Both the position numbers and the translations under genes were made by a program. The notes beneath the pieces were generated by a model, which saw only the letters and a list, made by a program, of their open reading frames with translations, had not been told where the DNA came from and made no database searches. From positions 1 through 38,674 of the IMG/VR virus record IMGVR_UViG_3300027782_000168: DNA of 38,674 nucleotides; one strand, written 5' to 3'. Below, one piece after another: positions 31,322 through 35,583 of the stretch (position 1 is the first letter of the stretch; each line of letters opens with the position of its first letter). The stretch comes from a virus.

Positions 31322-33151
31322 TTATCTTGTAACTCCCTTCTGCTTGTTTTTTTCTTCAACATAACTGTAAATCATTTCTTTGAATTTTTCACTGTTCAAA
31401 AATTCAGTTAAATATTGAGTACTAACTCCCGACGGTGCGTCTACTTTGAATGTTACCGTGCCAGTATAATCTACGGTTTTATTAATTTGAGAATTAACTT
31501 TTGTTTGCGGTAAACTTGACTGAGTATTTTGGGCTCCAAAAATACTACTTCTTGTTATAGGTTGTGCCTTTTGTCCACCAGCAGGTGTCTGTACTTTAAC
31601 ACTACCACTTTTAGATGCATCTGATGGTGTAAATGTAGTTGCAAATCTTCTAAATTCAGTTTCTAATCCACTACCACCATAAGCACTTTTAGAAGCATCT
31701 TTAAGAACTGTCTTTAATGTATCTAAAGCTTCAGGACCTACATTTTTTGCTTTATTAATTAAATTATCCTCAAACACTTTTAACTTTTGAGAAAAGTCAT
31801 CCGCACTTATTTTTCCTTCACCTTTAAGGGTAAATAAGTCTTTCATTGACTCTAAAGTAGAAGTTACCGCAGTTCTAACTTCTTCAGTCTTTGGTAAGTT
31901 ACGTTGTAAACCTCCAGTTAATCCAGTAGATATTCTTCTAAATCCTTCAACATTACTAGTTACTTGTCTTGCAGATGCCGCGCCATAACTTGGCGCTGCA
32001 AGTATTGCTTTAACATCAGCATTAATTATTTGTAAAACACTTAATTGACTTCTTTGAATATCTTCTAAAGTTTTTGGTGCTTGGTCTTGTTGTTCTCTTA
32101 ATTTTTTTAATTCTTCTTGGGTTACTTCTCCTAATTTTTTTGTTAATTCAACTTCACCTTGGTCATTTTTAATTTGAACAACATAATCATTGCCTTGTTT
32201 TACCGCCAAATTAGCTAAGAATGTCCTATCTTCTTCTCTTTCAAAATTCAAACTTGGACTAATTGTAGAAAGTCTTTTATCTAAATCTGCTGCAGATAAA
32301 GCCATTTTAGATAATTCACCCGCACCAATACCTGTTTCTTTACTAAGTTCTCTTATCGTTAATAAACCTTGAGGGTTAATTCTAAACGATTGTGTTTTTT
32401 CATCAAAATAAGTAAATTGTTTAGTCGCATTTATTAAACTATCTTGAATTGCGCCTGGGTCATTTAAAGCATCGTTCATTAATTTAAGTGGGTCACCTAA
32501 ATCACCAACTGCAACTCCTAATCTTTGGAAAGCCGCAGCCGTATTAATTGCATTCTCAGGACTAATTAACTTATCTGCAAAGTCCAAAGTTGTTTTCATA
32601 TCTATCCTCAACATTGAAGCCTGAGCCGCCATTCTAGTTAATCCCTGAACTCCGTCATTAAAATTAAATTTGGACATTGCATCCATATTCTTTAATACGT
32701 CCGCAGTAACCGTTTTAGAATTTAAACCAATACTTTGAATATAAGCAATGGATTTTTCTAAATTGACTCCAACTTGTGATACGTCGTAACCTACTTGTCC
32801 AAATGCCTCAGTTAATGTCTTGGCATCTGTCCCTAATATTTGAGAAGCTGCAAATATTTTACTTACGGTTTCTTCGTTTGCAATAAGATTTCGTCTTGCA
32901 CCAGCTCCAATACCATCTAATGTTCTTACAACATCAGTTATGGAACCACCTAACCTACTTACACTAGCAACCGATTGAGCAATGGCAACATTCATCTCCT
33001 CAATCCTTACTCTACCTTGAACAAAACTCTTGTTTAACGCATCGGTTGCTGCAACCATTAAACCAATAGTTTCCGCCATAGAACCTAAAGGATTTTTGAA
33101 TTTGTTTGCCGCTTCTTGAAAGCCGTCTAAACTATCATTAATGTCTGCCAT
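31322..33151 (-). CDS. 29: Tail tape measure / gp29-like baseplate hub protein
   Basis: The 609-residue protein (T4 gp29 is 590) is mostly helical with Ala/Ser/Leu-rich segments and few aromatic residues until the end, as in tape measure proteins: GSMAETIGLMVAATDALNKSF near the start, ASVSRLGGSITDVVRTLDGIG, ETVSKIFAASQILGTDAKTL and AAFQRLGVAVGDLGDPLKL. After about residue 510 comes a Gln/Ser/Pro-rich linker and a small beta-helical end (DYTGTVTFKVDAPSGVSTQY ... KFKEMIYSYVEEKNKQKG). It follows tail tube and the gp26-like chaperone, the standard place for a tape measure. It probably sets tail length and is packed inside the tube. A late element and a hairpin precede it. Confidence 0.85.
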   Translation of the reverse strand: MADINDSLDGFQEAANKFKNPLGSMAETIGLMVAATDALNKSFVQGRVRIEEMNVAIAQSVASVSRLGGSITDVVRTLDGIGAGARRNLIANEETVSKIFAASQILGTDAKTLTEAFGQVGYDVSQVGVNLEKSIAYIQSIGLNSKTVTADVLKNMDAMSKFNFNDGVQGLTRMAAQASMLRIDMKTTLDFADKLISPENAINTAAAFQRLGVAVGDLGDPLKLMNDALNDPGAIQDSLINATKQFTYFDEKTQSFRINPQGLLTIRELSKETGIGAGELSKMALSAADLDKRLSTISPSLNFEREEDRTFLANLAVKQGNDYVVQIKNDQGEVELTKKLGEVTQEELKKLREQQDQAPKTLEDIQRSQLSVLQIINADVKAILAAPSYGAASARQVTSNVEGFRRISTGLTGGLQRNLPKTEEVRTAVTSTLESMKDLFTLKGEGKISADDFSQKLKVFEDNLINKAKNVGPEALDTLKTVLKDASKSAYGGSGLETEFRRFATTFTPSDASKSGSVKVQTPAGGQKAQPITRSSIFGAQNTQSSLPQTKVNSQINKTVDYTGTVTFKVDAPSGVSTQYLTEFLNSEKFKEMIYSYVEEKNKQKGVTR

Positions 33152-33177: not shown

Positions 33178-33206
33178 AAGAAGGACTAATTTTTTTAGTC
33201 CTTCTT
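33178..33206 (-). terminator. Hairpin at the end of the chaperone ORF, possible terminator
   Basis: Arms 33178-33189 and 33195-33206 give a perfect 12-base-pair stem with a 5-base A loop on the minus strand. The stem includes the last three codons and the stop of the small chaperone ORF. The following minus-strand sequence CTATTTATATAG is only moderately U-rich, so termination may be weak, and mRNA stabilisation is another possible role. Confidence 0.6.
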
Positions 33207-33356
33207 GTTTTCTTCAATCCATTTGTCCAATAAATATTTCCTAATAAAAATTGGCATTTTCTCAAAATCTTGATAAGTTATCTTCATTAAATTATTTAAA
33301 TAATAAAACTCATCAATTTGACCTTTCCTATAATCAGAAGAAAGGACGAAAAAAGT
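33195..33356 (-). CDS. Short +1-frame ORF, probable frameshift extension of the gp26-like chaperone (gpT-like)
   Basis: Between a TAG at 33359-33357 and a TAA at 33197-33195 a frame of 53 codons is open, shifted +1 relative to the gp26-like gene and overlapping its last 23 bases. It reads FVLSSDYRKGQIDEFYYLNN, then LMKITYQDFEKMPIFIRKYL, ending WIEENKKD. The only ATG (33287) would give a 30-residue protein that cuts into the coherent segment before it. The pattern 'YY-L ... F-x-x-MP-x-x-x-R-x-x-L ... E-E-x-K-K' resembles the short T domain of tail-assembly chaperones, which sits directly before the tape measure gene as here. Expression by frameshifting at the T6 tract is an inference; a separately initiated 30-residue protein is the alternative. 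Confidence 0.65.
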   Translation of the reverse strand, partial: TFFVLSSDYRKGQIDEFYYLNNLMKITYQDFEKMPIFIRKYLLDKWIEENKKD

Positions 33357-34077
33357 CTACCCCTAAACCGACATTTACTGTCAATTTTTCTCCTGATGGG
33401 GTCATAACTACTCTTTTCATATCTAATCTTGGTTCATTTTGATTCATAAAGTTTCTAAATTCTTTTGAATCCATAATTGGCATTGACTCAATAAACTTTG
33501 AAATTTCTGCCTTATCTGAACTACCGTTTATTTCTACTATTTCTTTCTGCATTCTCCACGTAATTTTTGGAACAACTCTTCCTTGTGGATATGAGTCTGC
33601 CATTCTTGTGATTTCCATAATTTCGCCATATGATAATGGTTTAACTTTAACAACCGCTTGAGATTTTGATAAAGTTGTTGTAAAAGTTCCATCTTCACTT
33701 GGTGTTTGACCATTAATAATTTGTAATTGGTCTAACAAAACTGTTGTTTGGAATGGTTTGTTTGTTGTTGGGTCTGTAAGATTTAATGTCATTTCAGGTC
33801 CGAAAGCTGTGTTTCTTAAAAAGATTAAGATTGCTTCAATATCCCCTTCAATTAAATCTTCTACCCTCATATCAGGTTCATAGATTTTTGCTCTTAATAA
33901 GTTAAGAGTCAAATCGGCACCACCGCCCATTAATATATTCTCATCTGAGGCAGTTAGATATCCAACTTTTAAAGATTTCTTTTTGTTTTTGTAAAAAATC
34001 CCCCCCGATGGTAAAGGTACCACGTCATGAGGAAGTGTAAAATTTTGTTGACCGTAGTCTGATGTTTGATTGTCCAT
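33334..34077 (-). CDS. 26: gp26-like baseplate hub / tail-assembly chaperone
   Basis: The 247-residue protein (T4 gp26 is 208) has the layout of the T4 baseplate gp26-type family: LPHDVVPLPSGGIFYKNKKKS, then KVGYLTASDENILMGGG, DLIEGDIEAILIFLRNTAFG, and a central beta part (KPFQTTVLLDQLQIING, AVVKVKPLSYGEIMEITRM). The C-terminus (EFRNFMNQNEPRLDMKRV ... VDFFRPFF) precedes the stop at 33336-33334. It lies between tail tube and tape measure, the gpG place in many tailed phages, so it probably keeps the tape measure soluble during tail assembly. The ATG at 34077 is only 8 bases from the gp19 terminator stem; the conserved LPSGG motif begins near residue 22, so no later start is plausible. Confidence 0.75.
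   Translation of the reverse strand: MDNQTSDYGQQNFTLPHDVVPLPSGGIFYKNKKKSLKVGYLTASDENILMGGGADLTLNLLRAKIYEPDMRVEDLIEGDIEAILIFLRNTAFGPEMTLNLTDPTTNKPFQTTVLLDQLQIINGQTPSEDGTFTTTLSKSQAVVKVKPLSYGEIMEITRMADSYPQGRVVPKITWRMQKEIVEINGSSDKAEISKFIESMPIMDSKEFRNFMNQNEPRLDMKRVVMTPSGEKLTVNVGLGVDFFRPFF
33348..33355 (-). promoter_or_regulatory. Candidate programmed frameshift site
   Basis: The minus strand reads C TTT TTT C at the end of the gp26-like gene, in the frame GAC TTT TTT CGT. A tRNA-Phe on the second TTT can slip +1 onto TTC, which enters the small overlapping ORF. A -2 slip within the six T also reaches that frame. A canonical -1 slip does not. Frameshifting would add about 50 residues to the 247-residue chaperone. 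Confidence 0.5.
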
Positions 34078-34085
34078 AAAAAAAT

Positions 34086-34113
34086 AACCGTAAAGTGTTT
34101 ATGCTTTACGGTT
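34086..34113 (-). terminator. Terminator after the tail tube gene, abutting the next start codon
   Basis: Arms 34086-34095 and 34104-34113 form a perfect 10-base-pair stem (AACCGTAAAG with CTTTACGGTT) around an 8-base loop, followed on the minus strand by ATTTTTTTATGG. The U-tract runs into the ATG of the gp26-like gene at 34077. It would end most transcripts of the abundant tail tube mRNA and leave only readthrough for the chaperone. Confidence 0.88.
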
Positions 34114-34167
34114 AAATATAGTATAATAAATTATTTTATAAATGGTTAGACGTATTTTATTAAAAAA

Positions 34168-34656
34168 TCAATAAACTAACACACATCTATCCATTTGTAA
34201 TGTAGCCGTGATTGTTGCTAAAGCGTCTGACTTGTAATCCAATGCGTTAAAGTTAACGTTTGTTAAGAATGTTCCATAAAGAATCCACTTCTCAACAACA
34301 ACTCCAGTTGGGTCTAACATCTCCAAGTCAATATCTTTCTTATAACCTGCTGCATAACCCATACGACCTGTAACAGATTCAGCGTGTAAACGAACCCACT
34401 CCATTAAAGCTTGAGCTGCCGATGGACCGATTGGGTCTCTAAATTGTACGTTGATTGGATTCCATTTGAATCTACCTGCAACGAATGTTGAAGTATTTAA
34501 AAACTGTACCTCTACTGGGTTAATAGCAATCTGTGGTCTTGACGCTGTTTCTACAAACCACTCGTTAATACCTAAACTTGATGGAAACCTTAGAATGAAA
34601 CGATTTTGACGTTTTGGTTCGTAAGGTATCGGCATTTTCATTAATAAATCAGCCAT
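34168..34656 (-). CDS. 19: Tail tube protein gp19-like
   Basis: The 162-residue protein has the length of T4 gp19 (163) and its pattern: PYEPKRQNRFILRFPSSLGI, NEWFVETASRPQI, FKWNPINVQFRDPIGPSAAQ, LMEWVRLHAESVTGRMGYAA, then YKKDIDLEMLDPTGVVVEKW and the closing LYGTFLTNVNFNALDYKSDA. This is the major structural protein of the tail tube, polymerising in hexameric rings on the baseplate. It has its own strong terminator downstream and an A/T-rich late-type element 36 bases upstream, consistent with high late expression. A TAAAATAAC leader just before the ATG fits a non-Shine-Dalgarno host. Confidence 0.95.
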   Translation of the reverse strand: MADLLMKMPIPYEPKRQNRFILRFPSSLGINEWFVETASRPQIAINPVEVQFLNTSTFVAGRFKWNPINVQFRDPIGPSAAQALMEWVRLHAESVTGRMGYAAGYKKDIDLEMLDPTGVVVEKWILYGTFLTNVNFNALDYKSDALATITATLQMDRCVLVY

Positions 34657-34752: not shown

Positions 34753-35583
34753 TTACTTATATTCTTGCTTAATTCCTCCTGCAGTAGAATAAGTTTTAAC
34801 TATATTATCTGGTTTATTTTTAAAATGTTTATTCATTACTTCTACATTTCTTATATCATCATCTGAAAATCCAATACTAGGTTGTTTAGGAATAAAATTA
34901 TTAGATACATCATTCTTTAAAAATGCCTTCTTATTTAATACTCCAGACATACCTTTAATATAAGAAACAAAATCTTCCATCGCTTCTACTTTTGCCTCCT
35001 CAGGATTAACCGCTCCAGAGTCGTCCCCAAAAGAAACAGGGTGGTACTTATTCATCTCTAAATATGACTTGATTAATTCATCATCAGTCATATCGTCTTC
35101 ATCAGCAAATGTTCTATATTTTTTTAGATTCTTAACTAAATGGTCTTTGTCTATTCCATTAAATCCGTCTATAATGTAATTGTAAACGGCTTGTTTTAAT
35201 GTATTAGGATTATGACCTCTCGCAGTAATTATAGAAAAAATTGAACCATTGTTAATAGCTTCTTTAAAATCATTAAATGCGGGACCTAATTTTGCTCTCA
35301 TTGCATCAACTAAAAAGTCTTTGTCACCAGCGGTTTTAAAGTTTTTAAAAGCATCTTCTGCAAAATCAACAATTGTTTCACCTTTGTAATTAAATGGGTT
35401 TTTTCCAATCTCACTTCTATATTCCGCAAAATCTTCAGTACTCATCCCAACTTCATCACCATCTTCAGACTTTAAAATAATCTTTGTTGGCATGTGAACA
35501 ATGTTATCATCCCAATCAAATGCATAGTACTTCATATCTGGAGTACCCTCATTTTTAAATCCTTCTTTAATTTGTTGTTTCAT
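34753..35583 (-). CDS. HAD-superfamily phosphatase-like protein
   Basis: The 276-residue protein shows HAD signatures: motif I FDWDDN (D23 nucleophile, D25 acid/base), motif II SIITARGHN (T120) and motif IV SFGDDSG (D187-D188). The lysine of motif III is not clear; K198 in PEEAKVEAM is a candidate. The cap region between 30 and 110 is acidic and helical. Substrate is unknown; nucleotide or polynucleotide 3'-phosphate removal is a common role of phage HAD enzymes. The N-terminus could start at ATG 35583 or at the internal Met17, which is close to the conserved YYAFDWDDN strand. The C-terminal tail (about 225-276) after the HAD core is unexplained. An enzyme gene between sheath and tail tube is unusual for a T4-like tail cluster. 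Confidence 0.8.
   Translation of the reverse strand: MKQQIKEGFKNEGTPDMKYYAFDWDDNIVHMPTKIILKSEDGDEVGMSTEDFAEYRSEIGKNPFNYKGETIVDFAEDAFKNFKTAGDKDFLVDAMRAKLGPAFNDFKEAINNGSIFSIITARGHNPNTLKQAVYNYIIDGFNGIDKDHLVKNLKKYRTFADEDDMTDDELIKSYLEMNKYHPVSFGDDSGAVNPEEAKVEAMEDFVSYIKGMSGVLNKKAFLKNDVSNNFIPKQPSIGFSDDDIRNVEVMNKHFKNKPDNIVKTYSTAGGIKQEYK

Follow-up and report, generated by a model that had tools for sequence, protein, structure and literature searches.

The gene at 34077-33195 on the minus strand of the window, by which we mean the whole 38,674-base IMG/VR virus record of a T4-type contractile-tail phage, is very probably (about 90%) decoded in two ways by a +1 frameshift, and on the sequence evidence the two products are a predicted pair of the G/GT kind. 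The main new point is a pattern that reaches beyond the phage of the window to the whole T4 superfamily and includes both shift directions. A short and a long form of the protein seem to be general in that superfamily, obtained by a +1 shift, by a -1 shift or by gene duplication.

In the mechanism that we propose, the 247-aa gp26-like protein would come from the majority of the ribosomes, which stay in frame 0. In a minority the peptidyl-tRNA-Phe on UUU (33351-33349) would re-pair with UUC one base forward while the uncommon Arg codon CGU is in the A site, and from these shifted ribosomes a protein of 293 aa would result, which has 50 additional residues as a C-terminal domain. The domain common to both forms would coat the tape measure protein, and tail tube subunits would be recruited by the C-terminal one. 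The slippage, its efficiency and the binding partners are those parts of the mechanism which we infer.

Two earlier observations are touched by this reading. A review from 2016 describes a wide conservation of G-T frameshifting among long-tailed phages, 'except T4' (PMC5009743), and a comparison of 26 T4-like genomes from 2010 reported, without explanation, that cyanophage gp51 has about 20% of the normal length and only C-terminal similarity (PMC3037559). If the short/long pair arises through a +1 shift, a -1 shift or duplication, both the exception of T4 and the 'truncated gp51' of the cyanophages are explained. A description of a gp26/gp51 frameshift was not found in the open-access literature (subscription papers were outside the search), as the earlier note had supposed, nor was a paper in that literature which links the 'except T4' clause with the short cyanophage gp51.

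Gene neighbourhood in the window

The minus-strand order is sheath, a 276-aa gene, tail tube, gp26-like gene and a gene in the tape-measure position. The features used below are:

38345-35625 (-), sheath, Phage_sheath_1C profile match
34753-35583 (-), uncharacterised gene of 276 aa between sheath and tube
34168..34656 (-), gp19-like tail tube protein of 162 aa, matched by the tube family phrog_4542 at E 7.7e-28
34085..34114 (-), terminator-like hairpin that includes a T tract and stops just 5' of the gp26-like ATG
33334..34077 (-), T4 gp26-like protein of 247 aa, the frame-0 product and short 'G-like' form, PF12322 T4_baseplate and phrog_150
33349..33354 (-), T6 tract, frame-0 TTT TTT (Phe242-Phe243), putative P-site slippage site, invariant in 80/80 loci
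33345..33351 (-), putative +1 shift heptamer TTT_CGT_C, in which an uncommon Arg codon comes after the P-site Phe codon
33337..33354 (-), 18-nt block TTTTTTCG[T/C]CCTTTCTTC, clade-invariant except for one position, place of the wobble phase switch
33195..33347 (-), +1-frame extension, 50 codons and stop TAA, VLSSDYRKGQIDEFYYLNN...WIEENKKD, predicted to complete the long 'GT-like' form, dN/dS 0.10, joined to T4 gp51 by a chain of homology
31322..33151 (-), gene of 609 aa in the tape-measure position, assigned by position, TMP_3 E 0.017

The only significant profile matches of the 247-aa protein are PF12322 (27.1 bits against a curated cut-off of 24.5) and phrog_150 (E 1.2e-8), and the latter improves to E 2.2e-10 once the extension is fused. 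An AlphaFold model of the frame-0 domain, the sole part that was modelled, reached a pLDDT of 84, and with this model Foldseek matched the baseplate hub subunit of SP-15 and T4-like gp26 proteins. Comparison of the same model with the PDB gave no solved structure resembling the gp26-like protein. The earlier note had called the next gene the tape measure. Its position fits that name, which rests mainly on position because the profile matches are weak, the TMP_3 match (E 0.017 in the profile search) being below the cut-off.

The hairpin at 34114-34085 (-) has 11 pairs and a T tract and stands directly 5' of the gp26-like ATG; a terminator is annotated at the equivalent spot in the SP-15 record, in the interval between tube gene and gp26-like gene. 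It may cause the chaperone to be expressed at a far lower level than the tube. No Pfam match at E 0.01 was obtained for the 276-aa gene at 34753-35583. By its sequence (YYAFDWDDNIVHMPT...) it looks like a HAD-type phosphatase or kinase, which is an odd location for an enzyme.

The putative slip site and the +1 frame

The 3' end of the gp26-like gene (34077-33334, minus strand) reads GAC TTT TTT CGT CCT TTC TTC TGA. An open +1 frame extends from 33356 to 33195, 53 codons from stop to stop. The earlier note had given this gene end, this open frame and a T6 tract in the overlap in the frame GAC TTT TTT CGT, and all three are present on the minus strand as claimed. It had also predicted a product of the 247-residue protein plus about 50 residues; as computed, the shifted product has 293 aa, 243 of which are common with the 247-aa protein and 50 of which are new. 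In dinucleotide shuffles of the stretch the frame stayed open in 140 of 20,000 trials (0.7%), so that the single sequence is merely suggestive.

The heptamer TTT_CGT_C at 33351-33345 lies within the overlap of the two ORFs and corresponds to the motif UUU_CGN. Both CGN codons concerned are uncommon in the window (CGT 31/396 and CGC 1/396 Arg codons), and TTT CGN occurs in frame only once in its 12,217 codons, which is at the slip site. A -1 site of the form X_XXY_YYZ was not found, since the window reads C_TTT_TTT, and the window's clade is without an open -1 extension. The earlier note had asked for a +1 (or -2) frame in place of the common -1; its +1 direction, its slip from TTT to TTC and its likeness to G/GT were judged to fit the evidence.

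Close relatives of the window

The 80 nearest loci from a scan of viral contigs (clade A) have protein identities of 76-100%. The sequence TTTTTTCG[TC]CCTTTCTTC is kept in 80/80 of them, a conservation which is not independent evidence of slippage because the site codons are read in two overlapping frames. The +1 frame is likewise open in 80/80 and encodes a protein FF[VA]LSS[DNE]YRxxQ[ILV]DEFYYL...KD. The T6 tract and the frame offset, on which the earlier note had made its proposal depend, are thus both maintained. After dereplication the extension is open in 14/14 members. The L010 subgroup has GGA in place of the first frame-0 stop, and a TAG two codons later ends the frame, which indicates that a stop right behind the slip site is not required. 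The A-site codon is CGT in 8 and CGC in 6 of the 14 dereplicated members, as against 7 and 0 among 124 Arg codons in the rest of the genes.

The purifying selection in the +1 frame that the earlier note had proposed to look for was found. Among 15 dereplicated members dN/dS is 0.15 for frame 0 upstream of the site; downstream it is 0.10 for the +1 frame and 0.94 and 2.33 for the other two frames. Upstream, 42 of 49 minority bases are at frame-0 third positions, downstream 64 of 94 are at +1 third positions, and it is within the 18-nt block 33354-33337 that the wobble phase changes, which locates the shift there.

These data also bear on the possibility that the small ORF is a separate gene, read from its own (perhaps non-AUG) start or by termination-reinitiation past the frame-0 stop. 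A short gene is indeed annotated in the cyanophages ('gp51'), immuto, SP-15 and RM378, and 12 of the 14 clade-A members, the window not among them, contain an ATG in the shifted ORF just 5' of the site. However, the first ATG of the window follows only 20 codons past the site, and yet the strongest constraint (dN/dS 0.03, 15 dereplicated members) falls on the +1 stretch that separates this ATG from the frame-0 stop, so that translation must enter from upstream of this internal Met. The shifted ORF of the window begins 3 nt ahead of the T6 tract, and the annotated starts cut conserved sequence, as is seen in the P-SSM7 'gp51', which is annotated with 31 codons from an internal Met of the extension. 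A conserved start of its own was what the earlier note had named as speaking against frameshifting. The position of the first ATG varies among the clades, and no start codon is conserved near the frame-0 stop or the beginning of the ORF. We therefore consider a separate gene very unlikely and keep the +1 shift as the preferred reading.

A conserved stimulatory RNA was not detected by RNAalifold on 15 relatives (consensus -7.2 kcal/mol, 0 compensatory pairs), and a short hairpin 3' of the slip site is not conserved in the relatives. The window has a strong local fold (z -4.3), which takes in an inverted repeat where the extension ends. This repeat, AAGAAGGACTAA/TTAGTCCTTCTT at 33206-33178 (-), is a perfect one of 12 bp across the stop codon of the +1 extension, and its AAGAAGGACT arm is well conserved among relatives.

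Other lineages with the +1 arrangement

Distant named phages were found by tblastn, for which the frame-0 protein and queries from clades B and C were required; a search of named phages with the 48-aa extension alone gave no meaningful match. The relatives obtained are Bacillus phage SP-15, Listeria phage LIS04, Streptococcus phage GXN1, Microcystis phage Mel-JY01 and Pseudomonas phage QdP_Psa3. Each of these five has a +1 frame that remains open directly past the end of frame 0, and the junction is TTT TTT or TTC TTT. The sites of GXN1 (TTC TTT CGT) and QdP_Psa3 (TTC TTT CCC) comprise no long run. In Rhodothermus phage RM378 an open +1 extension follows TTT TTT TGG, and in Flavobacterium phage immuto one follows a site of the CUU_U type. 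Most +1 sites outside the clade of the window are UUU_UGG or CUU_UGG.

Clades B and C are larger environmental clades which were fetched with the Mel-JY01 and immuto queries. The dereplicated sites of clade B are TTT TTT TGG CCT (49/54), CTT TTT TGG CCT (3/54) and TTT TTT TAC CCT (2/54); those of clade C are mostly TTT CTT TGG CCT (18/32) and TTT TTT TGG CCT (13/32). An open +1 extension is present in 53/56 dereplicated members of clade B, where 3 members were not scored as open and at least two contigs of the clade end at or before the site, and in 33/33 of clade C. Within the extension pN/pS is 0.21 in clade B and 0.27 in clade C, with values above 1 in the other frames. In all three +1 clades the wobble variation changes to the +1 phase at the site. 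The base 5' of TTT TTT is never a T in the dereplicated +1 clades; the near-duplicates L060 and L062, with a T before TTT TTT, are exceptions.

As judged from these sites, a +1 re-pairing in the P site would be from UUU to UUC in the clade of the window, SP-15 and GXN1, from UUU to UUU in clade B, and from CUU to UUU in clade C and immuto. LIS04 appears compatible only with a slip on the first of its two UUU codons and is the least direct fit.

The same frame would be reached by a -2 shift, as it is used by phage Mu, and a T6 tract permits a -2 move of UUU. A pairing argument speaks against it: no acceptable -2 pairing exists at CUU_U (clade C and immuto) or at UUC_UUU (GXN1 and QdP_Psa3), where the +1 move does pair. 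We give a -2 shift as little credit as the separate gene. Transcriptional slippage on T6 or T7, which would yield mixed mRNA with both frames, has in its favor that most sites contain such a run. Yet the sites TTT CTT TGG of clade C (18/32), GXN1 and QdP_Psa3 are free of runs and have kept the +1 extension, and +1 re-pairing in the P site fits these as well as nearly all other sites; slippage of the polymerase is thus a shade less probable still. An assembly or sequencing error at the homopolymer which sits at the junction, or a decayed gene, is refuted by the comparative data, namely by a tract whose length and phase do not vary over 80 loci of many metagenomes, by isolate genomes that are arranged alike, and by the codon-level purifying selection in the +1 frame.

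Relatives with a -1 extension

A site U_UUU_UUC followed by a -1 extension is found in the cyanophages S-RIM50, S-RIM8, S-CREM1 and P-SSM7, in KVP40-like vibriophages, in Vibrio phage phi-ST2, and in Cronobacter phage S13, Agrobacterium phage Atu_ph07, Pseudomonas phage PA5oct and Stenotrophomonas phage RAS14. In 26/26 dereplicated cyanophage-type loci a T precedes and the second Phe codon is TTC, and here the wobble variation turns to the -1 phase. Around the gp26-like gene of the jumbo phages Atu_ph07, PA5oct and RAS14 (L171, L172 and L181) neither tube nor tape measure is annotated within a few kb.

The Ackermannviridae Vi01, ECML-4, 3M and VP-1 have an extension in the -1 frame with a less perfect heptamer. 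At the loci L176, L177, L179 and L351 of this family heptamers such as G_GTT_TTC and A_ATT_TTC are seen 3' of gp26. In VP-1 the overlapping TAATG makes reinitiation possible.

Most isolate records give the extension as a short separate gene, often from an internal Met, or leave it unannotated, and none of the opened isolate records uses a joined feature. The cyanophage 'gp51' genes at L350:2301-2396, L173:2735-2872 and L175:2732-2869 start at an internal Met, so that upstream conserved sequence is lost. Such starts are probably a systematic mis-annotation.

T4 gp26 and gp51

PF12322 covers T4 gp26 (E 8.8e-64) and gp51 (E 3.9e-52) over full length, and about 48 further C-terminal residues are found in gp51 only and not in gp26. 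The -1 extensions match this C-terminus of gp51 (hhalign E 7.3e-9, probability 96%) as well as the +1 extensions (E 2.1e-6, probability 89%). When the profiles of the +1 extension and of T4 gp51 are compared directly, the match is weak, and the homology of the two therefore rests on the -1 intermediates. Strong matches to the family phrog_634, 'baseplate hub assembly catalyst', were obtained with the cyanophage and vibriophage extensions, and a weak one with a clade B extension.

In a maximum likelihood tree of the shared domain, gp26 and gp51 of T4, Aes508, avDM1 and Miro group together (89/92, 90% bootstraps), and this group adjoins the frameshifting relatives including the Straboviridae phi-ST2 and S13. 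The Miro record contains two tandem genes annotated as 'T4 gp26/gp51-like'. The simplest reading of these sequences is that the frameshift gave way to a single duplication on the T4 branch, a direction of change which we infer. More generally, it is likely that G/GT-like frameshifting is ancestral or general in the gp26 family, that its direction was switched by lineage between -1 (U_UUU_UUC) and +1 (UUU_CGN, UUU_UGG, CUU_UGG), and that T4 instead duplicated the gene into gp26 and gp51.

If this is true, T4 is no longer an exception to the G-T rule, the cyanophage 'gp51' is a mis-annotated frameshift domain, and annotations in hundreds of phage genomes would need correcting. A concrete role would be suggested for the essential gp51 of T4. 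The family would further offer a natural series in which the direction of shifting goes with a single codon (TTT to TTC) and with the base before it, and it would place the UUU_CGN motif in a bacterial system, the cultured relatives of which carry sites of the UUU_UGG or CUU_UGG type.

Comparison with known systems

The frameshift of the lambda G/GT tail assembly chaperone was reportedly described by Xu, Hendrix and Duda in 2004 and is treated in the review PMC5009743. The gene of the window shares with lambda its place between the major tail protein and the tape measure, here the tube at 34656-34168 and the tape-measure position at 33151-31322, and in both systems the second ORF is not simply fused to the first, nor does it stand as a gene of its own. 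In the window this ORF overlaps in another frame, has no conserved start of its own and is under selection at the protein level, and the overlap contains a conserved candidate slippery site (TTTTTTCG[TC] in 80/80 loci, with variants in the sister clades). Unlike in lambda, the shift would be +1 and the family is PF12322, which has no detected similarity to G. Pfam and PHROG profiles gave no sequence match of the gp26-like protein to lambda-type chaperone families, and the SP-15 homologue reached only E 0.19 against a tail assembly chaperone family. Because no likeness to lambda G was found in sequence or among solved structures, the protein is better said to 'work like' G than to be a 'homologue of' G. 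Position and T4 genetics make it most likely that lambda gpG and gpGT have their counterpart in these two products.

To our knowledge the UUU_CGN motif for +1 shifts is known from eukaryotic viruses only. It is the shift motif of influenza A PA-X and of plant amalgaviruses (PMC3498833, PMC5052127). The site of the window resembles theirs in the P-site UUU, the A-site CGN Arg codon, the proposed slip to UUC and the lack of an obvious stimulator, but it belongs to a bacteriophage and a bacterial ribosome, and its sister clades have UUU_UGG or CUU_UGG. The bacterial gene prfB (RF2) uses a +1 frameshift at CUU_UGA. As in prfB, CUU_U in the P site would re-pair to UUU in clade C and immuto, whereas their A site contains the sense codon UGG and no SD-like stimulator is evident. 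A precedent for +1 shifting in structural or chaperone genes of tailed viruses is given by the archaeal myovirus HSTV-2, with a probable +1 G-T shift, and by the +1 shifts of Listeria phage PSA (both cited in PMC5009743), although these are other gene families and the PSA sites are of the CCC_UGA type in structural genes.

A further comparison is with T4 itself. Its gp26 and gp51 are described as chaperones of hub assembly, and gp51 as essential, not in the virion and of 'unknown function' (PMC3004832). The gene of the window belongs to the same family (PF12322/phrog_150), and gp51 has a domain homologous to its extension. T4 differs in that its short and long forms come from two paralogous genes and not from a frameshift.
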